Positions 3,612-45,608 of a stretch of DNA of 46,069 nucleotides are shown here, piece by piece (position 1 is the first letter of the stretch; every line of letters starts with the position of its first letter). Below the pieces are notes generated by a model. The model was not told the DNA's origin. It searched no databases and saw nothing but the letters and a program-made list of their open reading frames with translations. Both the position numbers and the translations under genes were made by a program. Source of the DNA: an uncultured Deinococcota bacterium (GTDB lineage Bacteria > Deinococcota > Deinococci > Deinococcales > Trueperaceae); contig CAMZLP010000057.1 of NCBI GenBank assembly GCA_947311535.1, positions 1-46,069 on the forward strand. The letters are read 5' to 3'.

Positions 3612-4684
3612 TGGATTTAGAAAAAATCGCCTCTGGTGCACGGCTTAGCGTAGTAGACGCAATTAAACTTTATGAATTACCACTTTTTAGCTTGGCTGCC
3701 CTAGCTGACCAAGTTCGCAGACAAAGAACAGAGCCAGAAGTAGTTAGCTATTTGATTGATAGGAATATAAATTATTCCAATATTTGTAATGTTGCTTGTG
3801 CTTTTTGTGGGTTTTATCGCACTCGTAAGCAAGACGATTCATACAGCTTGAGCTATGCAGAAATTAGCCAGAAGATATATGAGCTCGAGCAGGTCGGGGG
3901 TACACGCATACTAATGCAGGGTGGCGTAAATCCATATCTTGATTACAGTTGGTACTTAGAGCTAATGACTCACATCAAAGAAAATCACCCCACAATTCGA
4001 ATAGAAGCCTTTAGCCCCGAAGAAATTAAAGGGCTAGCCAAACTAACTGGCAAAACTAGCCTAACGGTATTAAAAGATTTACAAGCCGCTGGCTTAGACG
4101 GCTTACCCGGTGGTGGCGGCGAAATGCTAGTAGATAACATTCGCAAAGCCAAACATATCTCCCCCGCTCGTATCAGCACAGCTGAATGGCTGCATATAAT
4201 GAGTGAAGCACAGTCTTTGGGGCTTTACACAACTGCCACTATGGTAATTGGCTTTGGCGAAACTCCTGCTCAACGGGTAGAGCATTTTTTGCGTATCCGC
4301 GAGCTACAAGACCAATCTTTATCTAAATACAATAATGCCTTTAGTGCTTTTATTAGCTGGACCTTGCAAACCCAAGGTGTTCGGATTGAAGGCAAAGTAC
4401 CGCAAGCAAGCCCTCATGAATACTTGCAAAATTTGGCAGTCAGCCGCATATTTTTAGATAATATCAACAACTTTCAGGCGAGTTGGCCAACTATGGGTCA
4501 CAAAATTGCCCAAACTGCCTTGCACTTTGGTGCCAATGATTATGGTTCAACTATGTTAGAGGAGAATGTTGTCTCTCAGGCAGGTGCCAAGCACAATAAC
4601 ACCGCCGAAAAAGAAATTATTCGACAAATTAAAGACGCTGGCTACACCGCTAAGCAACGTGACAGCTTATATAATTTTATCTAA
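3611..4684 (+). CDS. mqnC: Cyclic dehypoxanthinyl futalosine synthase MqnC (radical SAM)
   Basis: A radical SAM enzyme that cyclises dehypoxanthine futalosine in the futalosine route to menaquinone. The 357 residues include the [4Fe-4S] motif CX3CX2C at Cys59, Cys63 and Cys66, then GGTRILMQGGVNP (96-108) and the family marker GLPGGGGEMLVD (163-174). FISWTLQTQG (near 249-258) and the C-terminal NDYGSTMLEENVVSQAG fit MqnC rather than MqnE. Other futalosine genes are not in the window. A 46-bp degraded copy of its 3' end lies 140 bp downstream. Apparently leaderless. Confidence 0.95.
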   Translation: MDLEKIASGARLSVVDAIKLYELPLFSLAALADQVRRQRTEPEVVSYLIDRNINYSNICNVACAFCGFYRTRKQDDSYSLSYAEISQKIYELEQVGGTRILMQGGVNPYLDYSWYLELMTHIKENHPTIRIEAFSPEEIKGLAKLTGKTSLTVLKDLQAAGLDGLPGGGGEMLVDNIRKAKHISPARISTAEWLHIMSEAQSLGLYTTATMVIGFGETPAQRVEHFLRIRELQDQSLSKYNNAFSAFISWTLQTQGVRIEGKVPQASPHEYLQNLAVSRIFLDNINNFQASWPTMGHKIAQTALHFGANDYGSTMLEENVVSQAGAKHNNTAEKEIIRQIKDAGYTAKQRDSLYNFI

Positions 4685-4955: not shown

Positions 4956-6379
4956 TGAAAGAACCTCCTGAACCTCCGAGTTATTTTAAATATTTTGCAT
5001 TTCCTACGATAGTTTTTTGGCTATTATTATCTAATATTGCCTTAGCTCAAGAAAGCTTAAAACCAACTCCCTATCTACAAACAAGCATTATTTTGGTGGT
5101 ATTACTAATAATATCTGGGCTTGTATCTGGTGCCGAGACAGCGCTTACTGCAATTGGTTCTTGGAAAATAAAGCATTTGCAAGAAGAAGGCGAAGATCCA
5201 AATGGGATATTTGCTCTATTAGAGAGTGACCGAACCAGATTTATAACTACCTTGCTAATTGCTAATAACTTAGTAAATATTGCTGCCACTGCCATTGTCA
5301 CTCGTTTGACAATTCAAATAGCCCAAGCATCTGGTTTTAGCGAGTCTTTGGCTTTGGGTTATGCAACTGGGCTTATGACATTTTTGATTTTAATATTTGG
5401 TGAAATCACCCCAAAATCTTTTGCTGTACACAATTCTATTGCCTATGCCAAATTCATTATCAGGCCGGTGCATTTTTTATCGCTGATTTTGTATCCGATA
5501 GGTAAATTTTTTAGCCTGATTACTGGAGTAATTTTACAACTGTTTAAAATTGAAACTAATATTAACCCACTTATTACCGAAAATGAACTGCGCCTAATGC
5601 TACGCAGTGCAGAAGAGCACGGTGTAATAGAAGAGCATGAAGAAGAAATGATCAAAGGGGTAATTGATTTAGAAGAGACGGTAGTCAGAGAAGTTATGAC
5701 TCCAAGGGTTGATATGGTGACGGTTGCTGATACTGATAGTTTGATGGATATGCTCGAGCTTTGCCAAAGTAGCCACTACAGCCGCTTACCTGTCCATCAA
5801 GAAACCGTAGATGATATAAAAGGCATTGTTTATTCTCGCATGCTACTTGACTACGTAAACAACCCTAAGGCCTTAAAAGAGACCACAGTAAAAGACATAA
5901 TGCTCACTCCCGAATACGTACCTGAAACTTTAAGCATCTTGCAGCTAATGCGAAATATGCGTAACCGAAAAAACCACATGGCCATTGTAGTTGACGAGTT
6001 TGGTGGAACCTCGGGGCTAATTACCTTAGAAGATATAATTGAAGAAATAACTGGCGAAATCTATGATGAAACTGACCCCGTAGAAAAAGAAGAATTAAGA
6101 GATTTGGGTGATGGTAAATTTATTATGCAAGCAACTATCAATATTGACGAAGTTGCCGAAGAATTAGCATTGACTATTGAAGACGAGGGTGAATATGACA
6201 CCTTGGGCGGTTTTTTAACTAGTTTGTTTAGTTATATTCCCAAAACTGGTGAGTCGCTGGTTTATCAAGATGCTGAGTTTTATATTACTAATTCTGATGA
6301 ACGCCGAATAATAGAGGTACGGGCAGAAATAAGTAAAAAGCCCGAAGAAGATGAACTAGTAGTAAATAGTTCAGAATGA
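4955..6379 (+). CDS. CNNM/CorC-family membrane protein with CBS domains
   Basis: A 474-residue hemolysin-C/CorC family protein, a group linked to magnesium and cobalt transport or resistance. An N-terminal hydrophobic segment (about 11-32) is followed by a DUF21/CNNM membrane domain (about 38-215) with VSGAETALTAIG and FGEITPKSFA motifs. A CBS pair follows (about 230-365: VREVMTPRVDMVTV, GGTSGLITLEDIIEEI), then a CorC_HlyC C-terminal domain (about 380-460). The layout is complete. It overlaps the sirtuin gene by 4 nt (ATGA), so the two are co-transcribed. A GCTCGAGC palindrome is at 5752, read as Leu-Glu. Confidence 0.92.
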   Translation: MKEPPEPPSYFKYFAFPTIVFWLLLSNIALAQESLKPTPYLQTSIILVVLLIISGLVSGAETALTAIGSWKIKHLQEEGEDPNGIFALLESDRTRFITTLLIANNLVNIAATAIVTRLTIQIAQASGFSESLALGYATGLMTFLILIFGEITPKSFAVHNSIAYAKFIIRPVHFLSLILYPIGKFFSLITGVILQLFKIETNINPLITENELRLMLRSAEEHGVIEEHEEEMIKGVIDLEETVVREVMTPRVDMVTVADTDSLMDMLELCQSSHYSRLPVHQETVDDIKGIVYSRMLLDYVNNPKALKETTVKDIMLTPEYVPETLSILQLMRNMRNRKNHMAIVVDEFGGTSGLITLEDIIEEITGEIYDETDPVEKEELRDLGDGKFIMQATINIDEVAEELALTIEDEGEYDTLGGFLTSLFSYIPKTGESLVYQDAEFYITNSDERRIIEVRAEISKKPEEDELVVNSSE

Positions 6380-7068
6380 ATGTATATAGCTTTAAAGATA
6401 TTGCAGTTCTAACAGGTGCAGGCATTAGTACCGAAAGTAGCATTGCAAGCTTTAGAGGTCAAAATGGTTTATGGAAAAACTATCGACCCGAAGAATTAGC
6501 AACGCCTCAAGCCTTTGCCAAAAACCCCGAGCTAGTTTGGGAATGGTATGCCCTGCGTATTAATACTGTTTTAAAAGCAAAGCCTAATAAAGCCCATTAT
6601 TTATTAGCAGATTTGGAAAAAACAAGAAAACTAACCATAGCCAGCCAAAATGTTGACCAATTACATCAAAGAGCTGGTAGCAAAAATGTGCTCGAGCTTC
6701 ATGGAAATATTAGCCATAGTCGCTGCTTGCAATGTGCTAATTTAGATAAATTAAAAATAGATTTTAAACATCCACCAAAATGCTCAAAATGTAATGAAAA
6801 TACTAGGCCAAACGTAGTTTGGTTTGGTGAAAGCCTACCCCAAAATACCTTTCAAAAAGCAATACAAGCCTTTCAAAATTGTGATCTAGCAATGGTAATT
6901 GGTACATCAGGTGTAGTTGAACCAGCTGCTAGTTTGGCTAATCTAGCTAAGTCTAAAGGGGCTTTTGTTTTAGAGATAAATCCAGAGCTCACTCCGATTA
7001 GCCAGATTGCAAATTTATCGATAAGAGATATTGCTAGTACTGGCTTAGATAATTTGATAAATAATTGA
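6376..7068 (+). CDS. cobB: NAD-dependent protein deacylase, sirtuin family
   Basis: A sirtuin of 230 residues that removes acyl groups from lysine using NAD. GAGISTESSIASFRG (14-28) is the NAD-binding loop, QNVDQLH (91-97) follows, and His109 in ELHG is the catalytic base. A zinc ribbon has Cys117, Cys120, Cys136 and Cys139. Tyr58 and Arg61 (YALR) match the pair that favours succinyl or malonyl lysine in SIRT5 and E. coli CobB, so desuccinylase activity is inferred. The usual SGIP of the NAD loop is SSIA here. Its ATG overlaps the stop of the CBS/CorC gene. It shares the window with three multi-domain acetyltransferases but not their operon. Confidence 0.93.
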   Translation: MNVYSFKDIAVLTGAGISTESSIASFRGQNGLWKNYRPEELATPQAFAKNPELVWEWYALRINTVLKAKPNKAHYLLADLEKTRKLTIASQNVDQLHQRAGSKNVLELHGNISHSRCLQCANLDKLKIDFKHPPKCSKCNENTRPNVVWFGESLPQNTFQKAIQAFQNCDLAMVIGTSGVVEPAASLANLAKSKGAFVLEINPELTPISQIANLSIRDIASTGLDNLINN

Positions 7069-7268
7069 AGCGAATGTTATTAAAATAAACTAAATTTTCT
7101 CCTTTATCCCTTCTCCTTTCCCTTAATTTGATAAAGGACATCTTTCTTGAGTTTGTTATTATGCATCAAAAATAATAAAAGCTATCAAATTAACTTAGCT
7201 AAAATATCTAGGCTCGAGCAATTAAGAATTGTTAACCAAATAATTAAGATAACGATTCACAACTGCCT

Positions 7269-8313: not shown

Positions 8314-9705
8314 TTAAGCTCGGTTTAAGCTCTTTTGCCATTCTTGAGCTTCTTCATTTGATTCTTTGACGTGGTATCTAGCAGCTTTAGGTAGACGAGA
8401 TTTTAGTGATAAAGAATATTGAGAAAAGTGCTCTAAGGCAGTACTAACCGGCTGGCGCAAAAAGAATTCGGCAGCAGCTATTCTTTGAACAATTTGAAAT
8501 GGGCTATGCTCGAGCAAATCCAAAACTTTAAGAATTTCATCACGGCTATAGTCTTCTAGCTGAATATCATCTAAGAAAAATACCGTAAAAGGCTTCATAG
8601 TAGCTAAGCTCTCTAAGACTGCTGAGAACCTACCTCTGGAGCTAATAATATTATGGATTTTTGCCTCAAGGTTTTCAGCGCCTCTTTCAAATAAACCCTC
8701 AGTAGCAAAATGCGGTTCTAAATCAATGGGGCTAATTGCAACTGATTTACTATAATCTACTAGTCTCTGAAATGCTTTCCAAGACCACAAACTTATTCTG
8801 CTAGAATTTGCAGGCGCAGACAAACGTAGCAAATCACGATGATTTGCAAATATAGCTACATAGTCTAAACCTAGGCTCCTACGTTGGTTCATAATCCCAG
8901 CCCAATCGAGGCTCTGGCCCTGTTCTAAAAAATGTACTAAAACAGCATATTTCCTTCTTCCCAAATTAATCTTAAGGCTCATTTTATCAGGGCCTAATAC
9001 CGTTAAGCGGTAACCCATCAGGCGAAAAAAATCTTTCACATTATTATAAGAATGATTATCTGTTTTTACCAAAGGCCTATTGGGCAGATTCTCACTAGCT
9101 TTCAGTTCAATTTGTTTGCTTTGCTCGCTTGCTTGAATTTGCTTTTGTGACTGAATTTGCTCTTTTGACTGATTGCTTCTAATAACTTTTACATTAAAAC
9201 CATCATATTCGTTTATATCTTCTTCCACTTTTAATATTTGCCAACGACCACTTTGATAAATAAAGCGCCCATCAATCAATAGTTTTTTGTGAAGCTTGTC
9301 TGTTTCAGCAATTTTATAAAACTGGCATATTTCAGCTTCTGAACGAGCTTGCCCAGAAAGATACAATTTATCTAAGACCTTATCTAAATCAAGAGTTTTA
9401 TAGTTTGACCTAGGCGATCTGGTACATTTTTCTACTCTTAAGCTATAGCTGCCATCATCATCTAATAAAATAATAATGTAATCATTAACTATTAGGCTAT
9501 TAGCCTCCATAAAGCTTTTAAAACCAAATACTCTTCGCTTATCAATTATTTGGATATTATATTCTTTTGATGAATGGGTATCAATCGCTTTCACTTCTCC
9601 CTCTGCAGGGAAAAGGCCTTTCATACTTGCAGGTAAAATAAGTAGACCACTTTTAAGACAAGTACTACTTAGGCGATATTTATACTCACTTCCTATTTTA
9701 ATCAT
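8314..9705 (-). CDS. Unrecognised two-part protein (conserved-looking, possible DNA-related)
   Basis: 463 residues if translation begins at ATG 9705, where GGAG lies 6 nt upstream; a GTG at 9717 is the longer alternative. I do not recognise the family. The first 90 residues are beta-rich. Residues about 95-165 look like a small helical (possibly winged-helix) domain. Residues 170-210 are a low-complexity Gln/Lys/Ser linker. The C-terminal 250 residues form a globular domain with LGRRKYAVLVHFLEQG, GLDYVAIFANHRDLLRL, SPIDLEPHFATEGLFERG and RGRFSAVLESLA. No signal peptide or membrane segment, so cytoplasmic. Divergent from the M3 peptidase gene, with two inverted repeats in the shared upstream region. 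Confidence 0.75.
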   Translation of the reverse strand: MIKIGSEYKYRLSSTCLKSGLLILPASMKGLFPAEGEVKAIDTHSSKEYNIQIIDKRRVFGFKSFMEANSLIVNDYIIILLDDDGSYSLRVEKCTRSPRSNYKTLDLDKVLDKLYLSGQARSEAEICQFYKIAETDKLHKKLLIDGRFIYQSGRWQILKVEEDINEYDGFNVKVIRSNQSKEQIQSQKQIQASEQSKQIELKASENLPNRPLVKTDNHSYNNVKDFFRLMGYRLTVLGPDKMSLKINLGRRKYAVLVHFLEQGQSLDWAGIMNQRRSLGLDYVAIFANHRDLLRLSAPANSSRISLWSWKAFQRLVDYSKSVAISPIDLEPHFATEGLFERGAENLEAKIHNIISSRGRFSAVLESLATMKPFTVFFLDDIQLEDYSRDEILKVLDLLEHSPFQIVQRIAAAEFFLRQPVSTALEHFSQYSLSLKSRLPKAARYHVKESNEEAQEWQKSLNRA

Positions 9706-9835: not shown

Positions 9836-9871
9836 TTATAAAAGCACTTGCTTGCAAAGGAAAAAGATTTA

Positions 9872-11899
9872 ATGAACCCAATATTAAGCCAAGAATTCAA
9901 AATACCATTTGCAAAAATTACTGCAGATGACATAGAAACCGCCATTCCTGAGATTTTGGATAGCACAAATCTAAAAATTAAAGAGATTGTCAAAAACCCT
10001 GAAATAGCCAGCTATCAAAATACAATTGTAGCTTTGGAGGATAGGCTCGAGCCTATCGACCGAGCTGTAACTATTGTTTATCACCTCAAAAGTGTAAAAA
10101 ATACCGCCTCTATCAGAGAAGCGTTTAATTCGGTTTTAGAGAGCATTTCAAAATTTTATGCAGAATTAGCCCTCAACCAAGAATTGTGGCAAAGGCTAAA
10201 AGAATTTGCTGATAGCCCAGCCGCTCAGGATTTAAAAGGCATAGAAAAAAGACATTTTGAGAAAACTATTAAGAGCTTTGTGCGTAATGGTGCAGATTTA
10301 GACGATCAGGCTCGAGCCAAAATTAAAGCAATTAAGATAGAATTAAGTGAACTCCAAAATAAGTTCTCAGAAAATGTATTAGACTCGAGCAATCAATTTG
10401 AATTAATCCTAACAAGCCCCGAAGAATTATCAGGCTTGCCTCAGTCCGTTTTACAAATGGCAAAAGAAGACGCAGAAAACAAACAAATCTCAGGTTATAG
10501 GTTTAGTTTACAAGCTCCTTATATAGTGCCATTCTTGAAATATTCAAATAACAGAGCCTTACGCAAAAAAATGCACAACGCCTACGAAAACAGAGCAAGC
10601 TCTGGCAAACATGATAATGAAAATCTAATAGATAGGATTTTGCTTCTACGGCAAGAATTAGCCCTTATTTTAGGTTACAAAAACTTTAGCGAGTATCAAC
10701 TTGAAGAGCGTATGCTCAATTCTACTAAAAAAGTAAAAGACTTCCAAGCAGAAGTCTATCAAAAAACCCTCCCTTTTTGGCAAAAAGAACTTGATATCCT
10801 CAAAACTTTTAGCAAAGAGGAACTCCATATAAAAGATTTAAAACCTTGGGATATCTCTTACGCCATAGAAAAACTTAAACTATCTCAATTCTCTTTTGAT
10901 GATGAAGAGTTACGCCCTTATTTTTCTTTAAAAAATGCTCTGGCAGGTCTTTTTGAAATTGTTAACAGATTGTTTGCAATCACAATCAAAGAAGAAGAAA
11001 ATGAAGAGAAATGGCATGAAGATGTACGTTATTACAATATTTTTGCAGAAGATGGCAGTTTTTTGGGAGCTTTTTATACCGACCTGTTCCCAAGAGAAGA
11101 AAAACGCAGTGGAGCTTGGATGAATTCATTTATTACAGGTGGCCCCAAAGAAAATGCCAGCTTTAGCCCTCACTTGGGCTTAATAGTTGCAAATTTTAAT
11201 AAAGCACAAAAAGATACCCCATCATTACTTAGTCACCGTGAATTAGAAACCCTATTCCATGAATTTGGTCATTTGCTCCACCACATGCTTTCTAATGTAG
11301 AAATAAAGTCTTTATCTGGAACTAATGTAGCTTGGGATTTTGTAGAATTACCCTCACAACTTATGGAAAATTGGACTTATGAAAAACAAGCTCTCGACCT
11401 TTTTGCCAAGCATTATAAAACCTCTGAAGCTTTACCTGATGATTTATTGAACAAACTGCTATCGCAAAAACAATTTATGCAAGCTCATTACCAAATGCGC
11501 CAATTGAGCTTTGGAGATATTGATTTAGCACTGCACAGTAATTATTCAAAAGAGGCTGATGGCACAGTAGTGAGTTTTTCAAGTAATATTATGGAAAACT
11601 ATGCTATCAAGCCTGAATTTGCCCATAGTAACTTCATCAAAGCCTTTTCTCATATCTTTTCAGGCGGCTACGCTTCTGGCTATTATAGCTACAAATGGTC
11701 TGAAGTTTTAGAAGCAGATGCATTTACTCGCTTTAAAAATGAAGGAGTATTTAATTCTGAAACTGGTAAGGAATTTAAGGAAAAAATACTATCAAAAGGA
11801 AATAGCGAAGAAGCAAATAAGCTATTTGAAGACTTTATGAATCGCAAACCAAGTATTCAATCTTTATTAGATAGAAATTTAGGAGCCCTAAGCTCTTAA
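9872..11899 (+). CDS. prlC: Oligopeptidase A-like M3 metallopeptidase
   Basis: Cytoplasmic zinc oligopeptidase (M3A; oligopeptidase A/PrlC type) that degrades peptides left by ATP-dependent proteases and signal peptidases. 675 residues from ATG 9872, supported by AAAGGA about 10 nt upstream; an upstream TTG at 9848 would add eight residues. The N-terminus (NPILSQEFKIPFAKITADDIETAIPEIL) is family-typical in layout. The zinc motif HEFGH is at 463-467, with the further conserved LSGTNVAWDFVELPSQLMENW stretch after it (Glu ligand) and the C-terminal GGYASGYYSYKWSEV substrate-binding loop. Full length. It contains an 18-bp palindrome at 10040-10057 encoding DRLEPI and another GCTCGAGC at 10310. 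Confidence 0.95.
   Translation: MNPILSQEFKIPFAKITADDIETAIPEILDSTNLKIKEIVKNPEIASYQNTIVALEDRLEPIDRAVTIVYHLKSVKNTASIREAFNSVLESISKFYAELALNQELWQRLKEFADSPAAQDLKGIEKRHFEKTIKSFVRNGADLDDQARAKIKAIKIELSELQNKFSENVLDSSNQFELILTSPEELSGLPQSVLQMAKEDAENKQISGYRFSLQAPYIVPFLKYSNNRALRKKMHNAYENRASSGKHDNENLIDRILLLRQELALILGYKNFSEYQLEERMLNSTKKVKDFQAEVYQKTLPFWQKELDILKTFSKEELHIKDLKPWDISYAIEKLKLSQFSFDDEELRPYFSLKNALAGLFEIVNRLFAITIKEEENEEKWHEDVRYYNIFAEDGSFLGAFYTDLFPREEKRSGAWMNSFITGGPKENASFSPHLGLIVANFNKAQKDTPSLLSHRELETLFHEFGHLLHHMLSNVEIKSLSGTNVAWDFVELPSQLMENWTYEKQALDLFAKHYKTSEALPDDLLNKLLSQKQFMQAHYQMRQLSFGDIDLALHSNYSKEADGTVVSFSSNIMENYAIKPEFAHSNFIKAFSHIFSGGYASGYYSYKWSEVLEADAFTRFKNEGVFNSETGKEFKEKILSKGNSEEANKLFEDFMNRKPSIQSLLDRNLGALSS
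10040..10057. repeat. 18-bp perfect palindrome centred on GCTCGAGC
   Basis: GATAGGCTCGAGCCTATC, inside the M3 peptidase gene, read as Asp-Arg-Leu-Glu-Pro-Ile. The same hexapeptide from nearly the same bases occurs in the 26-bp palindrome of the ABC-F gene (26868-26893). Confidence 0.9.
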
Positions 11900-14176: not shown

Positions 14177-15145
14177 ATGTCATTAGCAGTAGTAATTTTA
14201 GCAGCGGGTGAAGGTACTCGCATGAAAAGTAAATACCACAAAGCCATGCAAGAAGTTTCTGGTAGGCCTATACTCGAGCATATCCTAAGAGCAATAGAGC
14301 CACTAAAGCCTGAGAAAACTGTTTTAATAGTTGGCTACGGTGAAAACCAAATACGCAACAGATTTAAAAACGATGAGTCGATTAGCTTTATCACTCAAGA
14401 TTTTGAGCAAGGTTATGGTACAGGTGCGGCATTTATGCAAGCCGCCTCAAAACTAGCAGATTTTGATGGAGATGTTTTAGCTCTTTATGGTGACGGTCCT
14501 TTGCTTAAAACTGAAACTTTAGAAAAACTAAGTTCTGCTCAAAAAACCCACAGTGGCATGTGCTTAGTAACTGCAGTTGTAGCAAACCCAACAGGAATGG
14601 GTCGTATTATTAAAAATGATGATGGTACAATTGCAGCAATTATCGAAGAAAAAGATACTAACTCCGAGCAAAAAGCTATAAACGAAGTAAACCCTAGTAT
14701 TTTTCTTTTTGATAAAGATGTTTTCAATATTGGCAAAAATTTAGATAATAAAAATGCTTCTAATGAATATTATTTGACCGATATGGTTGAGTTATATATA
14801 AAAGCAGGAAAAACTGTCAAAGCAGTAGTTGCCGAAGAAGAAGAAGTATTAAGCGCCAATGATAGAAAAGAATTATTCAATTTAGACAAAATTTTGCGTG
14901 ACCGCATTAGAGACAAATGGCTAAAAGCTGGGGTCACTATGACTAACCCAGAGCAAACCTATATTGACGATACTGTTTTAATTGAGCGTGACGTTGTGCT
15001 CGAGCCTGGTGTAATAATTATAGGAAACACAATCATAAAAGAAGATGCCCGCATTGGAGCTTATTCTCATTTGAAAGATTGCATTGTTAAAAAAGGTGCA
15101 ATTGTCAAAGCCTTTACTATTGCCAGTAATAAAACTTTTATTTAA
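14177..15145 (+). CDS. glmU: GlmU-like N-acetylglucosamine-1-phosphate uridyltransferase lacking the acetyltransferase domain
   Basis: Makes UDP-GlcNAc from UTP and GlcNAc-1-phosphate for peptidoglycan and LPS. The N-terminal pyrophosphorylase domain (about 1-225) is complete: VILAAGEGTRMKSK (6-19), GYGTGAAFM (near 82-90) and the ALYGDGPLL metal site (usually GDVPLL). The left-handed beta-helix begins at about 255 (TYIDDTVLIERDVVLEPGV) but stops at residue 322 after about three turns. Full-length GlmU is about 456 residues, so the acetyltransferase active site is missing. A terminator follows directly, with no continuing frame, so the short form is not a simple frameshift. A GCTCGAGC palindrome is at 14998. 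Confidence 0.88.
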   Translation: MSLAVVILAAGEGTRMKSKYHKAMQEVSGRPILEHILRAIEPLKPEKTVLIVGYGENQIRNRFKNDESISFITQDFEQGYGTGAAFMQAASKLADFDGDVLALYGDGPLLKTETLEKLSSAQKTHSGMCLVTAVVANPTGMGRIIKNDDGTIAAIIEEKDTNSEQKAINEVNPSIFLFDKDVFNIGKNLDNKNASNEYYLTDMVELYIKAGKTVKAVVAEEEEVLSANDRKELFNLDKILRDRIRDKWLKAGVTMTNPEQTYIDDTVLIERDVVLEPGVIIIGNTIIKEDARIGAYSHLKDCIVKKGAIVKAFTIASNKTFI

Positions 15146-16587: not shown

Positions 16588-16890
16588 ATGGCAAATAGTA
16601 GTAGTTCATCAAAATATCAAAAACAGGCTCGAGCCAAACGCAATTATAGCTATTCCAATAACAATCAAACCGCAACCCCAAACAAAATAAAAAAATATTA
16701 CTCTGCGCTCGAACTCGAGCAAGGGGCTAAGCAAAGCGAGGTAAAAGCGGCTTATATCAAATTGGTAAAAAAATATCACCCTGACAAATTTCAGGATGAA
16801 GAAAAAAAACAACTTGCTACCGAATTATTACAAAAAATAAATGAGGCTTATGCCGAAGTAAACGAGCATTTACTTCAGACGGCAAGCTAG
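16588..16890 (+). CDS. Short J-domain (DnaJ-like) protein
   Basis: 100 residues when started at ATG 16588. A Ser/Lys/Asn-rich basic N-terminal tail (1-35) is followed by one J domain (about 36-97): YYSALELEQGAKQSEVKAAY, the HPD motif at 64-66 that stimulates DnaK ATPase, and a closing helix. The Gly/Phe, zinc and C-terminal domains of DnaJ are absent, so this is a type III J protein that directs DnaK to an unknown client. An open frame reaches back to 16459, but those 43 residues look like translated leader. Two palindrome-type sites are inside: GCTCGAGC at 16627 and ACTCGAGC near 16713. Confidence 0.82.
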   Translation: MANSSSSSKYQKQARAKRNYSYSNNNQTATPNKIKKYYSALELEQGAKQSEVKAAYIKLVKKYHPDKFQDEEKKQLATELLQKINEAYAEVNEHLLQTAS

Positions 16891-16892
16891 TT

Positions 16893-17957
16893 TTATTTAA
16901 AAAGGTAGCCCTGTTTATACGCTGTTAATAAGAGCTTAATATCTCGCGAATAATCTTGATAACCTGCACTTACACCTTGAGTTTTTAAATAACTACCATA
17001 GACTAATACCTGAAAATCTTTAAACCATTGCGGTGCCGAATATTTTTCAAATGGGGCATAAATTGCCTCAATATCTGCTTTTACAGTGGCTGGTAAATTA
17101 TTATAGTGTTTGCTGCGGGCTTCTTTAGCGAGCTTGTTAATTGTAGAAATATAAACTTCTAAGGCAATGCTATAGCGTGCAAAATCATTTGCCCCCCTCA
17201 ACACTGCCAGTTCCGAAACAAACTCAGCATCAGCCTCGCCAGCATAGCCAGCAATATGGGCTAGCTCATGAGCTGCCACCCGAATAAAGAACGTATCTGA
17301 TAGGCCTGAGTCTACATGTGCCTCCAAAAAGAATGGTGAACTCACGCCTGACGAATTGCCAAAACGAATTAGGCTGCCTTTGGGGAAATGCTTGATTTGG
17401 GGTAATATTGGCTTTATATTTGTGACTGCAAAAATAGTTTCTTTTAGGCTTTTATCAATTGAGCTTAGAGCGACGGTTTGGTCTCGGCTAGCATTAAAGT
17501 TTATTAGGATTTGCTCGAGCCTGTCCACAAAACTCTCTATCTCTGCACTAGTCAGCTCAATATTAGCTAAATTAAATTGTTCTTCAACAGATAAACGCTG
17601 ATAATTGGCACCCCAAAGCGTGAAAAATAAAATATAAATTAACAAAATAATGGCAATCAAATTATCTATAGTCCACTGAAACCAAGAAAGAAACGACTTT
17701 CGATTCTTCCAACTAATCAGCAATGAGATAATCAGCCAAATAAAGATTAATATTATAAATAGCAAACTCAAAGAAAATGGAAATCTATCGCTAAAAGGCA
17801 CTAAGACACTAGCAATTTTAGGATAAAGCCCGCGACTATAATGCTGCTCGAACCATTCGGCAGATTGTAAGCGAATAAAAAGAACAAATAAGAAAGCAGA
17901 AGTTAAGATTATTCTTCCAAATAATTTTGTTTTTGCTCGAGCATTTTCAACAGGAAT
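16893..17957 (-). CDS. DUF3810 membrane-anchored metalloprotease-like protein with a non-ATG start
   Basis: The conserved frame continues upstream of the first GTG (17801): it encodes a membrane segment (IILTSAFLFVLFI) and the DUF3810 hallmark EWFEQHYSRGLYP before a stop at 17970-17972. That stretch has no ATG, GTG or TTG. An ATT at 17957 (or ATC at 17960) follows the good Shine-Dalgarno GAGGTGG, so I place the start there, giving about 354 residues, close to the family's normal size. Three membrane segments lie in the N-terminal 120 residues. HELAH (230-234) is a zinc-protease-like motif, followed by GYAGEADAEF. The role of the family is unknown. A GCTCGAGC palindrome is at 17935. Confidence 0.75.
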   Translation of the reverse strand: MPVENARAKTKLFGRIILTSAFLFVLFIRLQSAEWFEQHYSRGLYPKIASVLVPFSDRFPFSLSLLFIILIFIWLIISLLISWKNRKSFLSWFQWTIDNLIAIILLIYILFFTLWGANYQRLSVEEQFNLANIELTSAEIESFVDRLEQILINFNASRDQTVALSSIDKSLKETIFAVTNIKPILPQIKHFPKGSLIRFGNSSGVSSPFFLEAHVDSGLSDTFFIRVAAHELAHIAGYAGEADAEFVSELAVLRGANDFARYSIALEVYISTINKLAKEARSKHYNNLPATVKADIEAIYAPFEKYSAPQWFKDFQVLVYGSYLKTQGVSAGYQDYSRDIKLLLTAYKQGYLFK

Positions 17958-22103: not shown

Positions 22104-22697
22104 TTAAAAATTAGCGGCTGCTAGATTTGGTTCTGCACGCAGCACGTAGCGCAAGGGGCCAGTCGGGGCAATTACATTAAATGGATAACAAGTTACTAAT
22201 ATCAAATTGCCATGATTGGCTTCTAGTTTTAAAGAGGTTTTTCGGGTATCAGCTACCTCACCTTGCATGATTGTGTAGCTGAATTTTTGACCATCTGGGG
22301 TTTCTAAAATTATCTGATCACCAAGGTTTAAATCTTGTAAAAACTCAAAATGGGTATCACGATGTCCGCTTATTACCGATGTTCCACCTTGCCCGGGTAA
22401 GTTGCTAGCCAGCATAAAACCTGGTCCAAAAGCAAGAGTTCTGCCGCTGGCACCCTCGAGCACAATCTGCTCAATACCTAAGCTAGGTACGCTCAATTTC
22501 ATAATTGCTTTGGTATCTGCCCAAGGCCAAGGCTTAGCATTATCAGCACCGTTTTGAGTTTTTACCCAAGAGCGTTCTAATAATTCTTGTGCCAAAATTG
22601 CTTTTAAGTGGATATAGGCACCACTAGAGAATTGCCAAACTGCTAAGGAAAGCGCCATAACAATACCGATGTTCATAATAACTATTGATGGCTTCAT
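22104..22697 (-). CDS. Sortase, class GN type
   Basis: Membrane-anchored transpeptidase of 197 residues. One N-terminal membrane segment (about 5-27) is followed by the sortase beta-barrel with the full catalytic triad: His112 in GHRDTHFEFL, Cys170 in ILVTCYPF and Arg184 in GPLRYVLR. Its ATG overlaps the stop of the VIT/vWA gene by 4 nt. That pairing is the known arrangement of the Gram-negative sortase family, which is dedicated to one VIT/vWA substrate. It would join that partner to an envelope acceptor; the acceptor is unknown. Confidence 0.92.
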   Translation of the reverse strand: MKPSIVIMNIGIVMALSLAVWQFSSGAYIHLKAILAQELLERSWVKTQNGADNAKPWPWADTKAIMKLSVPSLGIEQIVLEGASGRTLAFGPGFMLASNLPGQGGTSVISGHRDTHFEFLQDLNLGDQIILETPDGQKFSYTIMQGEVADTRKTSLKLEANHGNLILVTCYPFNVIAPTGPLRYVLRAEPNLAAANF

Positions 22698-24934
22698 GCT
22701 TTTAACCGCTCTTGTCTACGCTTTATAAATAAGACTATTGCAAATAAGAAGCTAATTAAGCTAATTAGCAAATTTACTGAAGCCGAAGTTGCTGTATTTG
22801 GGTAACCTAAAGCTTGGTTTGAGTTTCCTATTGTCACAGTTTTACTCATAACCATTGGGGCATTTGCAGCAGCAGAGCCAGCAGGGCTTGGGCTTACGGC
22901 ATCAAATGAAGCTGTAACCGCCTCGGTCGCTGGTAGCATTATTTCATCGTCAACAGTTTGCCCTGCAGGAACTTCTAGGGGTAAATCTTCGCTAACTAAG
23001 CCTTCTTCGGCAGGGCGAGCAGGAGTTTTATCTACGGCAACTAGGCTAGTATAGTCAGTTATCAAATGATGTTTTAGGGCTAGTTCAGTAATAGCTTTTT
23101 CTATTCTAGAATAATCAGCACCACGAATCATCTCATCGTTTAGGCTTTCAATTTTTGCCCTTGCCCAAACTTGAGCAACTTCACCGTTGGCTGCATTTGC
23201 AAGGTTTACACTACGTGACCATGTTTTGCCAGCAATATTACCACTAATTTTTACCTGACCATTTGGCTTTGCTAGCTTAATGCTTAATATAACAGGCTCT
23301 GCAGCATATAAATTAGGAACTATCTTAGGATAAACTTCGCTACCTTGTGGCAGCTCTAAATCAACATTTGTTAGCACTGGTTTTTCTAGCTTTTCAAATA
23401 GCTTTGCCATTTTTTCTTTTACCTCGGCAACATCGCTGATGTATACAAAGCTACCTCTGCCAAACTCAGCCGCTTTACGCATAAAGTAGCTATTTGGGGC
23501 CGAACCTATGGCTACGGTAAATAAATTTGCATCTTTTAGTTTTCTTTCTATTAATTGAAAGAGCTCAGTTTCATTGCCAACGCTGCCATCGGTTATAAAG
23601 ACTACTTGGCGTAAAAAGCCAGTGGCTGTTTTATTTTTAAGAGCAAGGTTTAAAGCAGGCACCATTTCTGTACCGCCATCAGCTTGTAATGATTTAACAA
23701 ATTGATGGGCTCGAGCCAAATTTCGGGCATTAGCCTTCTGGCTTTCGGCAAATAACTCTGTTGCAGTTGAGTTAAATTCGATAATATTAAATCTGTCTCG
23801 GCTATTTAAGCGGTTCAAAGCTAATGCTAAAGAATCTTTTGCTTGCCTCATAGACGTACCAGACATAGAGCCAGAGGTATCAATTATAAATATCATCTCA
23901 CGAGCAATAGTAGATTGAATATTTTCTAGCTTTGGTGGTACAAGCATTACAAGTGCATAACTTTGACCATTAATAATCTCAGTAAATACTGCAGCTCCAG
24001 GCTCATTGCCTAGTTTTGGAAGCCAATAAATTTCAAAATCTTTATCACTTGGGTTAGTCTCCAAATCAATACTATATTTATTTTCATTTTGCAAAATTCT
24101 TACGTCATGATAGCGACTCTCTAGCAAATCTAAAGGAAAACCAGCGTCTAATTCAATATGTATTTTTATAGGATTTACCGTAGCATTACTATAATAAGGA
24201 GTAATTTTAGAAGCATCTGGCACTTGGTCTGTATTAGCAGCCCAACCATTAGCAGTATTTTGATAATTTATATTTTCTTCGCCAAGAAGCTTAGCTCCTG
24301 GAATATAGCGTGGGGTAATTGCTAATGGAAAGCGCATACTAAAGCTATCGTCCTTTAAGGTCAAAGTTTCTATATAGCTAATTTCTATGATTATTGTTTG
24401 CCCTGGAGCAATGTTTGCAACTGAAGTTGTAAACATGTTTGGTCTTTGCTGCTCTACCAAACTGGTCTGATAACCTGCTTCTTTTGCTGCTTCATAAGTC
24501 TCTTTGGCTTGTTCTTTCTCTTGGATTTCACCAATTATTACTCTATCACCGATTATCATTTTTAGGCTGTCCACCGCAGCATCTTCTGGTAATGGAAATA
24601 CGTATAGTGCTTCTGTCCAATTACTACCCGTATTTATAAAGCTTTGCTTTAAACTAACCCGAGAAACCATGCCAGATATTTTCATATCAACTACGGTGCT
24701 TAGTTTAGTAGCCGGTAAAAACTTACCCGGCGTATCCGTATAAAAAACCAATTCCCCAGAGCTAATATCATCAATATTAACTAAAGCTGATGCTGCCTCT
24801 TCTGCTCTTGTAAGGCTAAAGAGCAAAAGAGGAATCAGAATTATCTCCAAGGGGTTGAGATATTTAAAGATATTAAGTCGTTCAAAAAACTTGACTTCTG
24901 GCTTGAGGGCTTTAAGGCTTTTAGTTTGTAGCAT
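22694..24934 (-). CDS. VIT and von Willebrand A domain protein with a sortase-sorting signal
   Basis: 746 residues, exported (hydrophobic stretch about 28-44, cleavage near TRAEE). A VIT domain (about 75-195) has the family's EALYVFPLPEDAAVDSLK and EAAKEAGYQTSLVEQQRPNMF. A vWA domain (about 345-510) has an intact MIDAS motif DTSGS (352-356), TDGS and GGTEM. A Pro/Ala-rich spacer precedes the C-terminal sorting signal: YPNTA (711-715), a hydrophobic segment (about 719-737) and a KRRQER tail. The motif departs from LPxTG. Matches the known target of class GN sortases. AAAGGAG precedes the ATG. A GCTCGAGC palindrome is at 23709. Confidence 0.92.
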   Translation of the reverse strand: MLQTKSLKALKPEVKFFERLNIFKYLNPLEIILIPLLLFSLTRAEEAASALVNIDDISSGELVFYTDTPGKFLPATKLSTVVDMKISGMVSRVSLKQSFINTGSNWTEALYVFPLPEDAAVDSLKMIIGDRVIIGEIQEKEQAKETYEAAKEAGYQTSLVEQQRPNMFTTSVANIAPGQTIIIEISYIETLTLKDDSFSMRFPLAITPRYIPGAKLLGEENINYQNTANGWAANTDQVPDASKITPYYSNATVNPIKIHIELDAGFPLDLLESRYHDVRILQNENKYSIDLETNPSDKDFEIYWLPKLGNEPGAAVFTEIINGQSYALVMLVPPKLENIQSTIAREMIFIIDTSGSMSGTSMRQAKDSLALALNRLNSRDRFNIIEFNSTATELFAESQKANARNLARAHQFVKSLQADGGTEMVPALNLALKNKTATGFLRQVVFITDGSVGNETELFQLIERKLKDANLFTVAIGSAPNSYFMRKAAEFGRGSFVYISDVAEVKEKMAKLFEKLEKPVLTNVDLELPQGSEVYPKIVPNLYAAEPVILSIKLAKPNGQVKISGNIAGKTWSRSVNLANAANGEVAQVWARAKIESLNDEMIRGADYSRIEKAITELALKHHLITDYTSLVAVDKTPARPAEEGLVSEDLPLEVPAGQTVDDEIMLPATEAVTASFDAVSPSPAGSAAANAPMVMSKTVTIGNSNQALGYPNTATSASVNLLISLISFLFAIVLFIKRRQERLKA

Positions 24935-25010: not shown

Positions 25011-25024
25011 TAGGCTCGAGCCTA
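25011..25024. repeat. Intergenic 14-bp palindrome centred on GCTCGAGC
   Basis: TAGGCTCGAGCCTA. This copy of the iterated palindrome lies outside any gene, 12 bp upstream of the -35 box of the VIT-sortase promoter, and shows that the motif is not confined to coding sequence. Confidence 0.85.
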
Positions 25025-25635: not shown

Positions 25636-27762
25636 TTATTTAATAAAGCCCTCGATCTTTTCATATTTACGCCTAGAAATTACCCACCAATTAGCAGAGT
25701 TTTTAACAAATTTAGTAGTAATATTTTCTTTGCTATAAAACTGCAAGATATTTAAATCTAGGTATAAAAAGCTCAGATCAATTATTAAATCAAGCAAAAT
25801 ATCTCTTGCCCATTTCAGTAAACAAGCATTTTCATCTTGCTTTAAAATTAAATGCCCTAACTTATCTTTAATTATTATATGGATAGTGATTGGCAAATTG
25901 CTAGTAATTTGACCATCTGCCCCCAACTTATCTGCATATAGTTCTATGCTTTTATTCTTTAGTATGTAACGAGCTAGTTGTTGGGCTTGCTCGTTGTTGT
26001 ATAATAATGACAGTTCATTTAATATTTCAAAATAACGTTCTTTTATTCTTACTAGCTCACGTTCAGAAAAACGCAAAGGATCAAGCAAATCATCATCTAT
26101 TTGGATAAGCTCGAGCTCATAGTTTTCAATAAGTTCCTGAGTACTTGGCTCCTTAGCTACAAGTTCTGGCTCAATAAAAGCTTCTCTGCTAATTAGCTGT
26201 TTCTTATAATAGCCTTTTAAAGCAGCCTGATAGCTGAGTATCTTGGCATCTTTTATTGAGCAAACCTGAGTTGCAATATTATTTATAAACTCAGCATCAT
26301 GGCTAGCAAAAATAATTGATATATTGGAGTCTTTTAAAGCTTTTTCCAAAAGAGTAATCATTTCTAAATCCAAATCATTTGTTGGCTCATCTAGTATTAA
26401 TAAATTAGCTTCTGAGGCAATAATTATAGCAATAGCAAGCCGCATTTTCTCGCCACCTGATAGAATTTGTGGGTTCTTTTGCCAATTTTCAAAAGGGATT
26501 TTTACAAGAGATAAAAGCATTTCGGCTCTTTGCTTAGTCACATAGTTTGTTAGCTGATTTATGATTGGTATTTTGGCCTCTAAACCACGATTTTTTTGGT
26601 CAATATAGAGTAGTTTGCTTTCTTTAGCCCAATATGTTTCTCGTTTGGGGTTATCAGATTCGATTAAACCAGCAATCATTTTAAATAGGCTGGATTTACC
26701 ACTAGCATTTAAGCCTACAAATGCAATTTTGTCGCCCTGATATAGGCTAAAAGAAATATTATCTAGTATTTGTTTTTGTCCATATGATTTAGAATAGTTT
26801 TTTATTTTTAATACTAAGTACTTAGACCTACTAGCCTTTAGTAAGATTGGTTTCTGGTTTTTCTCATTTTGGATAGGCTCGAGCCTATCCAAATCCCGCT
26901 GCAATCTTCGGCGTTGGGCTTGAACCTTAGTTGTAGCAATCTCTCTTAATTTTTGTTCTTGGGCTTTTAGTTTTTTTGCTTGTTTTCTGTTTAATAAGTT
27001 TTGTTTTATTTTGGACTGGGTTTTTTGATTTTTTTGTTTTAAGTAGCTATTATAATTGCCCTTATATCTGTCTAATTTTCCCTCGTTTAGCTCGAGCACC
27101 GCCCCAACAACCCCTAATAAATCTCTATCATGCGAAACAAGCAAAAACGCAGCATTAAGTTTTTGTAAACGTTTTTTTAAATACTGCCTCATTTCAATAT
27201 CCAAATGATTTGTAGCTTCATCAAACAAATATAAATCAGCTGGGCTAGCCAAAACCTTTACTAATTTTAAACGAGCCTTTTCTCCACCAGATAGTGTCTT
27301 TAAGGTTTTATAGTAGTCTTTTTCAAAAAAGCCAAAAGCTTCTAGCTCTTTCTTCAAATTATTTTCAGCTTTATAAGCGTCTAAATCCTCAAATCTAGTT
27401 CTAAGCTTGGCATATTCAATCAGCTTTTCTGGGCATTCTAAATCTTTTTCAAGTTCTCTAATATTTTTTTCTAAGTTATCTATTTCATCAAGTGCTGCTC
27501 GAGCATATTCCCAGACAGTAGAATCATCATTTAATGTTTCATTTTGTTTTAAATAGGCTATTTTTAAACCCGGAGTAGTTTTGATTACCCCCAGCTCGGT
27601 ATTAATATTTTGAGCGATATGCTCGAGCAAAGTTGATTTACCAGCTCCATTAGAAGCAATCAAAGCTAAGCTTGCATCTTGCTCTATAGACATAGATAAA
27701 GCAGTAAAAAGAGATTTTCCTGCTATGCTAAAACTTAGTTTATCAATTCTTAGTAATTCCAA
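25636..27762 (-). CDS. ABC-F family ATPase with a long C-terminal extension
   Basis: 708 residues, larger than usual for ABC-F (about 530-650), ribosome-associated translation or antibiotic-resistance factors. No membrane domain. ABC 1: Walker A ASNGAGKST (36-44), LSGGE (157-161), Walker B followed by DEATNHLD (181-188), where DEPTNHLD is usual. A basic linker (about 240-300) then leads to ABC 2: GLNASGKSS (350-358; a Gly of Walker A replaced by Ala), LSGGE (434-438), DEPTNDLD (458-465; usually NHLD). Both catalytic Glu are present. Residues about 530-708 are an extension with no similarity I recognise. The start TTG 27762 is uncertain. A 26-bp palindrome encodes DRLEPI in the linker. Confidence 0.85.
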   Translation of the reverse strand: MELLRIDKLSFSIAGKSLFTALSMSIEQDASLALIASNGAGKSTLLEHIAQNINTELGVIKTTPGLKIAYLKQNETLNDDSTVWEYARAALDEIDNLEKNIRELEKDLECPEKLIEYAKLRTRFEDLDAYKAENNLKKELEAFGFFEKDYYKTLKTLSGGEKARLKLVKVLASPADLYLFDEATNHLDIEMRQYLKKRLQKLNAAFLLVSHDRDLLGVVGAVLELNEGKLDRYKGNYNSYLKQKNQKTQSKIKQNLLNRKQAKKLKAQEQKLREIATTKVQAQRRRLQRDLDRLEPIQNEKNQKPILLKASRSKYLVLKIKNYSKSYGQKQILDNISFSLYQGDKIAFVGLNASGKSSLFKMIAGLIESDNPKRETYWAKESKLLYIDQKNRGLEAKIPIINQLTNYVTKQRAEMLLSLVKIPFENWQKNPQILSGGEKMRLAIAIIIASEANLLILDEPTNDLDLEMITLLEKALKDSNISIIFASHDAEFINNIATQVCSIKDAKILSYQAALKGYYKKQLISREAFIEPELVAKEPSTQELIENYELELIQIDDDLLDPLRFSERELVRIKERYFEILNELSLLYNNEQAQQLARYILKNKSIELYADKLGADGQITSNLPITIHIIIKDKLGHLILKQDENACLLKWARDILLDLIIDLSFLYLDLNILQFYSKENITTKFVKNSANWWVISRRKYEKIEGFIK
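26868..26893. repeat. 26-bp perfect palindrome centred on GCTCGAGC
   Basis: The arm TTTGGATAGGCTC (26868-26880) and its reverse complement are contiguous, so there is no loop. On the gene strand the inner 18 bp read Asp-Arg-Leu-Glu-Pro-Ile, as in the M3 peptidase palindrome. It lies in the inter-domain linker of the ABC-F protein (residues about 290-298), where insertion would be tolerated. Confidence 0.9.
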
Positions 27763-29212: not shown

Positions 29213-29326
29213 TTTTTAAGCGGCTAATCAATGCAATAAGACCCAGAATAAGTGAGTAATAATTTTGCTACGGCTCGAGCCATCTCAATTTGTAGATTTG
29301 TGATAACAGTGAACACTCAGATACAA

Positions 29327-38192: not shown

Positions 38193-38539
38193 TAGAAGTT
38201 CAAGCCTCCTTCACGTGCACCTTCGGCCAAAGCTTTTACGCGACCGTGGTAACGATATGCTGCCCTATCAAAGATTACATCTTTAATACCAGCAGCCAAA
38301 GCTCTCTCAGCTAATAGTTTTCCAGCAGCTCGAGCCTGTTCTTTTTTATCCCCATCTAATTTTAGAGCTTTTGTATTGGCTTCAGCCAATGTAACACCCT
38401 GACGAGAATCAATAATTTGAGCATAAATAAATTTATTACTTCTAAATACACTTAGACGCATACGACCATTATCAACTGGACGCTTTAAGCGACGCTGAGT
38501 ACGGAATTTACGTCTAGTTTGACGAGATAATCTAGCCAC
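38192..38539 (-). CDS. rplR: Large-subunit ribosomal protein uL18
   Basis: 115 residues; binds 5S rRNA. The basic N-terminus ([19 protein letters not shown]) and [16 protein letters not shown] (29-44) and the C-terminal [21 protein letters not shown] are typical. A GCTCGAGC palindrome at 38328 reads Ala-Arg-Ala ([17 protein letters not shown]). Confidence 0.97.
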
Positions 38540-41453: not shown

Positions 41454-41862
41454 AGACCTCCCGCTTAATCATTTTTGTTCTTACCGGAAGCTTGTGGCTT
41501 GCTAGACGAAATGCTTCTTTAGCCATCTCTTCAGAAACATTACCAACTTCAAATAAAATACGACCAGGTTTTACAACTGCCACCCAATATTCTACAGCAC
41601 CCTTACCTTTACCCATTCGAACTTCTTGAGGTTTTTTAGTAACTGGTTTATCTGGGAATATCCGAATATAAATTTTACCACTGCGTTTAAAATAACGACT
41701 CATAGTAATACGACAAGCCTCAATTTGGTTTGATTTAATCCAAACAGGCTCGAGCGCAATCAATGCATAATCACCAAAAGCGATATAATCTCCACCTTTA
41801 GTAGCGCCTTTCATACGTCCGCGCATTTGTTTACGATGCTTTACACGTTTAGGAATAAGCAT
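41437..41862 (-). CDS. rplP: Large-subunit ribosomal protein uL16
   Basis: 141 residues. [24 protein letters not shown] begins the family; the signature is [41 protein letters not shown] (66-106). Organises the A-site tRNA region. Starts immediately after the rpsC stop. A GCTCGAGC palindrome at 41748 lies inside the codons for Ala-Leu-Glu-Pro. Confidence 0.97.
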
Positions 41863-42657
41863 TTAACTCTTCCCCCTTGGTGGCCTATTATTACCGCCAG
41901 AAGCAGCACGCGATTGTCCGCCAGCACCTGGGCCAGAACGACGTCGCTGAGGGCGACGGCGGCGTTTATTCTTTTTAACATCCTCACGACTTTTAGAAGA
42001 AATTGTCGCCGCAGATCTTTGTTTATCACCAACAACTTCACCATGAAAAACCCATGCTTTTACACCGATTTTACCATACTGTGTTGCTGCTTCTGCTGTA
42101 CCATAATCAATATCAGCACGAATAGTTTGCAGTGGAACCCGACCATCACTAAAGTGTTCGGCTCGAGCCTGTTCTGCACCATTTAAACGGCCTGAACAAC
42201 GAATTTTACAGCCTTGCGCACCTGATTCCATAGCACGCTGAATTGCTTGCTGCATGGCACGCCTAAATTGAAATCTACGCTCTAGTTGCTCTGCGACTTT
42301 AACTGCAATTAATTGGCCACTAATATTAGGATTAGGAACCTCTTGTACATTTAAAGAAATATTACTACCTGAGATAGATTTTTCTAGCTGACTACGCAAA
42401 GCTTTAATAGTTTCGCCACCACGCCCAATTACCACACCAGGTTTAGCAGTTCTTACTGTTACGCTAATGCTTTGAGCAGCGCGTTCAATACTAATACGCT
42501 CAATACCTGAATGTCCGACTTCTTTTTGAATAAGTTCACGAATAAGCCCATCTTCGGCAAGATAGCGAGGATAGTCTTTGAAATTAGCATACCAACGTGC
42601 AGAAGGCTCTTTGATAATTCCTAAACGAAAACCTAATGGATTGACCTTATTACCCAT
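41863..42657 (-). CDS. rpsC: Small-subunit ribosomal protein uS3 with a long basic C-terminal tail
   Basis: 264 residues, longer than the usual 210-235. The KH domain is at about 40-110 (VRTAKPGVVIGRGGETIKALRSQLEKS holds the GxxG loop) and the C-terminal domain at about 110-210 ends VFHGEVVG. The last 55 residues are a low-complexity Arg/Lys/Gly/Pro tail (KKNKRRRRPQRRRSG ... NNRPPRGKS). A GCTCGAGC palindrome at 42161 reads Ala-Arg-Ala. Confidence 0.97.
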   Translation of the reverse strand: MGNKVNPLGFRLGIIKEPSARWYANFKDYPRYLAEDGLIRELIQKEVGHSGIERISIERAAQSISVTVRTAKPGVVIGRGGETIKALRSQLEKSISGSNISLNVQEVPNPNISGQLIAVKVAEQLERRFQFRRAMQQAIQRAMESGAQGCKIRCSGRLNGAEQARAEHFSDGRVPLQTIRADIDYGTAEAATQYGKIGVKAWVFHGEVVGDKQRSAATISSKSREDVKKNKRRRRPQRRRSGPGAGGQSRAASGGNNRPPRGKS

Positions 42658-44988: not shown

Positions 44989-45608
44989 TAGTTTACCTTC
45001 CTTCGAGATTCTTTAACAATTACCATGGAACCATTAGAACCAGGAATTGAACCTTTGATTAAAATTAGATTATCATCATTTCGAACTTCAATAAGCTCGA
45101 GCCCAATCGTAGTAATACGTTCTTGACCATAGTGACCTGCCATACGCTTACCTTTATAAACTCGACCAGGAGTTTTACTTTGCCCAATAGAACCAGGGCT
45201 TCTATGCTTTTTCTTAACACCATGGCTAGCAGGCATACCAGAAAAATTCCAACGCTTCATAACACCTGCTGTGCCTCTACCTTTTGAAAGCCCAGTAACA
45301 TCTACTTTTTTGACTTCCTCAAAGATATTAACACTAACTTCGTTAGCCTCAAAGTCAAAATCTCTAAACTCAACCAATCGTTTTTGTGGTTTAACCTTGG
45401 CTACTTTAACATGGCCTAATTCTGGCTTGTTAGCGCTTTTTAATCTTTTTTCTTGCCAACCAAGCTGGATAGAATTATAGCCATCTCTTTCTTCGGTTTT
45501 GCGTTGTACAACAGGGCACGGACCTGCTAAAACAACCGTTACTGGTATTAGCTTGTCTCCTTGCCAGACTTGGGTCATCCCAATCTTTGTACCTAATATG
45601 CCTTTCAC
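44988..45608 (-). CDS. rplC: Large-subunit ribosomal protein uL3
   Basis: 206 residues from a GTG start that shares one base with the rpsJ stop (TAGTG). KGILGTKIGMTQVW (2-15), the central extension GRGTAGVMKRWNFSGMPASHGVKKKHRSPGSIGQSKTPGRVYKGKRMAGHYG (about 125-176) and the C-terminal GSIPGSNGSMVIVKES are family markers. A GCTCGAGC palindrome is at 45095. Confidence 0.97.
   Translation of the reverse strand: MKGILGTKIGMTQVWQGDKLIPVTVVLAGPCPVVQRKTEERDGYNSIQLGWQEKRLKSANKPELGHVKVAKVKPQKRLVEFRDFDFEANEVSVNIFEEVKKVDVTGLSKGRGTAGVMKRWNFSGMPASHGVKKKHRSPGSIGQSKTPGRVYKGKRMAGHYGQERITTIGLELIEVRNDDNLILIKGSIPGSNGSMVIVKESRRKVN

Follow-up and report, generated by a model that had tools for sequence, protein, structure and literature searches.

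The palindromes that recur in unrelated genes of the 46,069-nucleotide stretch of DNA analysed here (the window) are extended copies within a genome-wide, HIP1-like array of the octamer GCTCGAGC, which consists of a strict CTCGAG hexamer with an outer G and C. At about 5% of the sites, the octamer is bordered by perfectly complementary arms, far above what chance would give, and we infer from the statistics of this one genome that the copying of one arm onto the other by short replication template switches is the best explanation. The host appears to be a low-GC (37%) member of Deinococcota; the ribosomal protein L2 and SecY encoded in the window match one distinct group of PDB chains well ahead of those of other bacteria, a group that we take to be that of Thermus and Deinococcus. 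The genome comprises 2,717,585 bases in an assembly that is 92% complete, and site statistics were read from a sample of 1.16 Mb (approximately 43% of the genome), with genes called by a simple longest-frame rule.

Three palindromes drew attention to the array. The longest perfect palindrome of the window, the 26-bp TTTGGATAGGCTCGAGCCTATCCAAA at 26868-26893 (core GCTCGAGC at 26877-26884, arms of 9 bases), lies within a gene for an ABC-F family ATPase (25636-27762, minus strand), where it falls at about residues 291-298 of 708, in the linker between domains in which the preliminary description had placed it. An 18-bp perfect palindrome, GATAGGCTCGAGCCTATC (10040-10057, core 10045-10052, arms of 5), occupies codons 65-70 of a gene for an M3 peptidase of the oligopeptidase A family (9848-11899, plus strand), and the 14-bp perfect palindrome TAGGCTCGAGCCTA (25011-25024, core 25014-25021, arms of 3) is intergenic. 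All three share the centre GCTCGAGC, and their sequences and positions are exactly those first described, as is the equal codon phase of the two genic copies, which are read as LDRLEPIQ on the minus strand of the ABC-F gene and as DRLEPI on the plus strand of the peptidase gene. The peptide common to the two genes is nevertheless a trivial result of identical palindromic DNA read in one phase and carries no independent evidence, since a palindrome is identical on both strands and codon phase alone decides the peptide. The phase in question, which gives Leu-Glu, holds 60% of all coding copies of GCTCGAGC (412 of 681). A search of the 1.16-Mb sample (43% of the genome) with peptides sorted by phase, as the preliminary description had proposed, found DRLEPI at 5 of the 24 TAGGCTCGAGCCTA sites in the Leu-Glu phase.

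The octamer occurs 28 times in the window, where mononucleotide composition predicts 0.18, and places within three mismatches of TAGGCTCGAGCCTA number 26, compared with 1.4 in shuffled sequence. Besides the three sites above, copies are found at 323-330, 719-726, 1326-1333, 1913-1920, 3316-3323, 3883-3890, 5752-5759, 6690-6697, 7212-7219, 14998-15005, 17513-17520, 27090-27097 (within the ABC-F gene), 38328-38335, 41748-41755 and 45095-45102; the right flank of the copy at 719-726, CTATCCAAA, matches the arm of the 26-bp palindrome, and its left flank does not. Further copies are extended to palindromes of 10 bp, at 8508-8515 (palindrome 8507-8516), 10310-10317 (the second copy in the M3 peptidase gene), 16627-16634, 17935-17942, 23709-23716, 29273-29280 and 42161-42168, and at 26109-26116, 27497-27504 and 27621-27628 within the ABC-F gene. 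Across the genome there are 1,592 copies of GCTCGAGC, or one per 1.6 kb, compared with 41 copies of the reversed control, and in the 1.16-Mb sample the octamer stands at 61 times its order-2 Markov expectation. Longer forms are much rarer, with 65 exact copies of TAGGCTCGAGCCTA in the genome and 4 of GATAGGCTCGAGCCTATC, 2 of which lie in the window.

Copies of GCTCGAGC are found in every codon phase and between genes. Variants that differ by one outer base are enriched as well (ACTCGAGC 9.0-fold, CCTCGAGC 6.2-fold and TCTCGAGC 3.5-fold), whereas those with one change within the hexamer are as frequent as expected or rarer (0.1- to 1.1-fold), and the same outer-base pattern was reported for one-off variants of HIP1 (Elhai 2015, PMC4390886). 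In the same 1.16-Mb sample, CTCGAG as such was counted 1,021 times against 97, and TCGA is depleted in most other contexts (TTCGAA, 56 versus 229; ATCGAA, 116 versus 217).

The flanks of the octamer follow a loose symmetric consensus, GNNTAG-GCTCGAGC-CTANNC, which was looked for in relatives and is seen in this genome only. Its extensions keep the palindrome, the preferred bases standing on either side of the octamer both within and between genes (d1 G 0.51, d2 A 0.52, d3 T 0.64 and d6 G 0.49). Wobble positions show the consensus most strongly (+1 C, 0.87 versus a wobble background of 0.147; -3 T, 0.82 versus 0.384), and TAG and CTA together flank 10 of 39 intergenic sites compared with 39 of 681 genic sites. 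As the consensus is strongest at the bases left free by the protein and commoner between genes, the flank preference acts at the level of DNA and is restrained by the encoded proteins.

A subset of sites goes well beyond this consensus. At the 720 sites with full flanks, whole right flanks were shuffled among sites of the same class in 5,000 trials; with arm-length thresholds that were examined together and not set in advance, but with wide permutation margins, arms reaching at least 4 bases beyond the octamer were observed 51 times (shuffled mean 18, maximum 34) and arms of at least 6 bases 16 times (mean 3, maximum 10). Shuffles confined to coding DNA and to the same phase gave a similar picture, the excess increasing as the arms lengthen, with 46 arms of at least 4 bases versus 15.8, 23 of at least 5 versus 4.8, 14 of at least 6 versus 2.4 and 6 of at least 8 versus 0.3. 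The two longest arms, of 9 bases, belong to the ABC-F copy in the window and to a site elsewhere in the genome (L112:13218-13243). Long arms as a property of any 8-bp palindrome can be rejected, given that 4,102 other such palindromes in genes show only a slight excess (36 versus 28.7 and 14 versus 8.9). With the perfect-arm excess strong next to this core only, the earlier suggestion that some copies go beyond independent point mutations and are related to hairpins is upheld.

The complementarity is all-or-none. All six flank pairs are complementary at 16 sites versus 3.1, and five of the six at 21 versus 17.5; the excess vanishes where the first flank pair mismatches or where TAG is present in one arm only, and past the first mismatched pair the flanks are no more complementary than background (0.24 versus 0.29). 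The complementarity adjoins the core in a contiguous block with a sharp end. The arms also appear to overwrite residues that are otherwise conserved: at extended sites in the Leu-Glu phase, arm-encoded residues are 22% identical to those of relatives, compared with 51% nearby (10 sites), while at short-arm sites the values are 43% and 47% (59 sites; P = 0.012 for the difference between extended and short-arm sites).

No comparable excess was found in two relatives with the same core (genome G011, 297 sites, 4 versus 2.0; genome G017, 130 sites, 0 versus 1.0) or on two plasmids of cyanobacteria (193 HIP1 sites), and long arms are therefore not general to such motifs, which points to a factor specific to this genome. 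The sole long-armed site among the 193, on a plasmid of Gloeothece citriformis PCC 7424 (one of L250 and L253-L257), reads ggatataa GCGATCGC ttatatcc, with perfect arms of 8 bases.

For this HIP1-like array, whose sites arose by length-conserving change, we lean on balance towards a reading in which a CTCGAG-specific orphan methyltransferase or repair process maintains the core and template switching copies the arms. The core array would be kept by an orphan DNA methyltransferase that recognizes CTCGAG, or by a linked repair process, as has been proposed for HIP1, and the self-complementary, GC-rich core would offer a landing place for the nascent strand. A nascent 3' end finishing within the core could fold back or anneal to the opposite strand, copy a short run of the arm it has already synthesized and rejoin its template, whereby the far arm would become the reverse complement of the near arm. 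The 26-bp palindrome of the ABC-F gene and the 18-bp palindrome of the M3 gene would then be products of template switching on top of the flank consensus. Template switching is reported to homogenize the arms of inverted repeats and to cause multi-residue protein changes (PMC8604942), one such event can make perfect stems (PMC8794818), and in Escherichia coli methyltransferase–DNA complexes trapped on DNA stimulate template switching (PMC6357072). Against this reading, a general process of template switching should act at other palindromes too, where the excess is slight; the relatives compared are distant, the nearest having an M3 protein of approximately 54% identity. A more specific proposal, which we put forward only tentatively, is that an iterated palindrome linked to a methyltransferase may act as a site-specific trigger of template switches, such that a DNA process repeatedly rewrites neighbouring codons in unrelated genes (as with DRLEPI) without selection on the protein.

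The main rival to template switching is selection for hairpins or cruciforms at a subset of sites, with the arms co-evolving for a structure in DNA or mRNA that serves, for instance, in pausing, repair or binding. The arms do covary while varying in sequence, contiguous stems would be expected under such selection too, and a single strand of the 26-bp copy has a favourable fold (-10.4 kcal/mol, z -5.5). However, the sites are spread along genes with no clear end bias, a search for a terminator-like site at the intergenic copy (25011-25024) found none, and the excess concerns perfect stems only, with none for near-perfect ones. The arms moreover alter amino acids and not silent positions alone, a cost that a minor structure would rarely repay, and we regard this explanation as rather unlikely.

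Less probable still is that the arms reflect nothing but an extended recognition consensus, with point mutations drifting towards GNNTAGGCTCGAGCCTANNC as preferred by a methyltransferase, a repair factor or a DNA-uptake receptor, and with the long palindromes being merely the sites nearest to that consensus. The flank consensus is real, extends over all phases and intergenic DNA, and many of the long arms read ATAG or TTAG and so resemble it. Yet whole arms were kept in the shuffles, so the shuffled values already include preferences common to the sites; an excess is left even so, both in arms without TAG and past the positions of the consensus. When the sites are split into those that share TAG and CTA and the remainder, the excess persists in each group (P about 0.003 and about 0.007, respectively), and neither site heterogeneity nor a common consensus is tenable as the sole cause of the long arms in the light of these stratified tests.

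A palindromic DNA-uptake sequence, gathered through biased uptake during transformation, would fit a density of one site per 1.6 kb, occurrence in all phases and extended flanks, and natural competence is known in members of Deinococcota. Uptake sequences usually have enriched near-matches, however, and inner one-off variants are not enriched here; what is conserved in some relatives, furthermore, is the hexamer CTCGAG, which resembles the site of an enzyme. We consider this origin very unlikely.

The insertion of a small mobile palindromic unit, of the kind of Rickettsia palindromic elements, REP- or MITE-like sequences or the small dispersed repeats of cyanobacteria, which the preliminary description had raised for some copies, is barely credible. 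Long copies do recur with similar arms (TTTGGATAG and TTGATTAG), and the ABC-F copy does sit in a tolerant linker, but orthologues lack an insert-sized gap at either of the coding sites first described. At the M3 site, 29 relatives align through with no gap, and at the ABC-F site the closest orthologues, of the same length, show no more than 3 differing residues; in more distant ABC-F paralogues the linker is longer and varies. Over 14 extended sites (72 alignments), the rate of gaps near the site was 8.3%, close to that of control positions (7.1%) and of short-arm sites (5.7%), and no gap of at least 6 residues occurs among the best alignments listed. Arm sequences also vary, with no fixed unit longer than the core, and there is no leftover complementarity beyond the perfect arms, whereas decaying inserts should leave some. 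The preliminary description had held that orthologues with the same residues and no gap would speak against insertion; the gap is indeed absent, whereas the residues encoded by the arms differ in relatives. On these alignments, the extended sites are length-conserving replacements of existing sequence and not inserts. Rickettsia palindromic elements, whose inserts are visible as gaps in orthologues, are alike in that palindromic DNA encodes similar peptides in unrelated genes, and differ in that no such orthologue gap is found here. Finally, a role as terminator or gene end was rejected, the copies being spread through genes with no terminator match.

Enrichment of the core extends to several genera of the family and the order, as the strict octamer in G011 (32-fold) and as the broader CTCGAG in G017 and in two other families, the other families of the order having been examined on short loci only. 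In six genomes from other families of the order (G040, G044, G045, G048, G049 and G052), a strong avoidance of the reversed octamer accompanies the enrichment of GCTCGAGC, with CGAGCTCG present 0-3 times in 1.9-4.6 Mb and GCTCGAGC 1,800-3,800 times.

As a lead to the cognate enzyme, relatives encode a candidate (A1) that is a gamma-class adenine methyltransferase of about 560 residues with PF02384 and PF22837 domains and the motif NPPF. Among 37 genomes of the family, 9 encode A1, which has no obvious restriction enzyme alongside within the short flanks seen and keeps constant neighbours in several genera, with a V-ATPase subunit I-like gene (a weak family match) on one side and another common gene on the other. 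Its presence goes with enrichment of the motif (Mann–Whitney P = 1.2e-4, kinship ignored). A1 is absent from the present enriched genome (92%-complete assembly) and from the enriched genome G009 (67% complete), and a search of the present genome for a CTCGAG methyltransferase found none, with no match to PF01555. A cytosine methyltransferase was rejected as the cognate enzyme, as this genome holds only a C-terminal fragment of one, presumably of HaeIII type, at a contig edge. An orphan CTCGAG methyltransferase is known from Nocardia (Blow et al. 2016, PMC4752239). Elsewhere in the genome, an 899-residue frame of an MmeI/Eco57I-type methylase (L132, G000:C40, 191-2890, minus strand) carries, between the methylase motifs, a REP-associated tyrosine (Y1) transposase domain read in the same frame (about residues 581-708).

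Other repeats and genes were observed alongside the array. Palindromes of the form GTAGAGACGCG...CGCGTCTCTAC, similar to repeats of cyanobacteria, recur at L118:7312-7337, L143:8708-8739 and L151:2357-2380, and a repeated palindrome with TCCAAGGGGTTTAAACCCCTTGGA occurs in four places (L132:917-940, L132:3017-3040, L103:907-930 and L121:9728-9759). A perfect inverted repeat of 142 bp lies at the end of a contig (L169:4636-4777) and is probably an assembly artefact. In the window, the frame at 22694-24934 (minus strand) matches the model 'marine proteobacterial sortase target protein' (TIGR03788; 752 bits, above the cut-off). The GlmU-like gene at 14177-15145 (plus strand, 322 residues) matches the 452-position bifunctional model only as far as about position 315, and its product is therefore probably a pyrophosphorylase-only form.

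Among known systems, the array is closest to HIP1 (GCGATCGC) and the alternate HIPs (PMC4390886), with which it shares a GC-rich palindromic octamer that occurs several hundred times per Mb and is present in genes, a strict inner hexamer with a variable outer base and palindromic extensions, and, in relatives, candidate orphan methyltransferases that track enrichment. It differs in its core (CTCGAG here, CGATCG in HIP1), in its host (Deinococcota-like, whereas HIP1 ranges over Cyanobacteria), in the subset of sites whose mutually complementary arms reach well beyond a fixed extension, and in the absence of a detected cognate methyltransferase from this genome. The Nocardia system (PMC4752239) has the same hexamer and an enriched motif, but its motif clusters beside dnaA, whereas the sites here are spread genome-wide and their methylation is only putative. 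Quasipalindrome correction and template-switch mutations (PMC8604942, PMC8794818, PMC6357072) likewise homogenize arms contiguously, conserve length and change several adjacent amino acids, although here the process is deduced from the statistics of one genome and is concentrated at one iterated motif. The novelty lies in the homogenized arms; as a HIP, the array adds one more member to a known class.

HIP1 has been known from cyanobacteria for a long time but still awaits an explanation. An array that is independent of HIP1, built on a different core and found in a second phylum, together with a conserved, putatively orphan methyltransferase that some of its genera have and others lack, offers a natural comparison for models based on methylation and repair. 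If the arms were indeed copied, they would document a mutational process that targets particular sites and alters proteins several codons at a time, and the outcome could pass for selection or for convergent peptide motifs.
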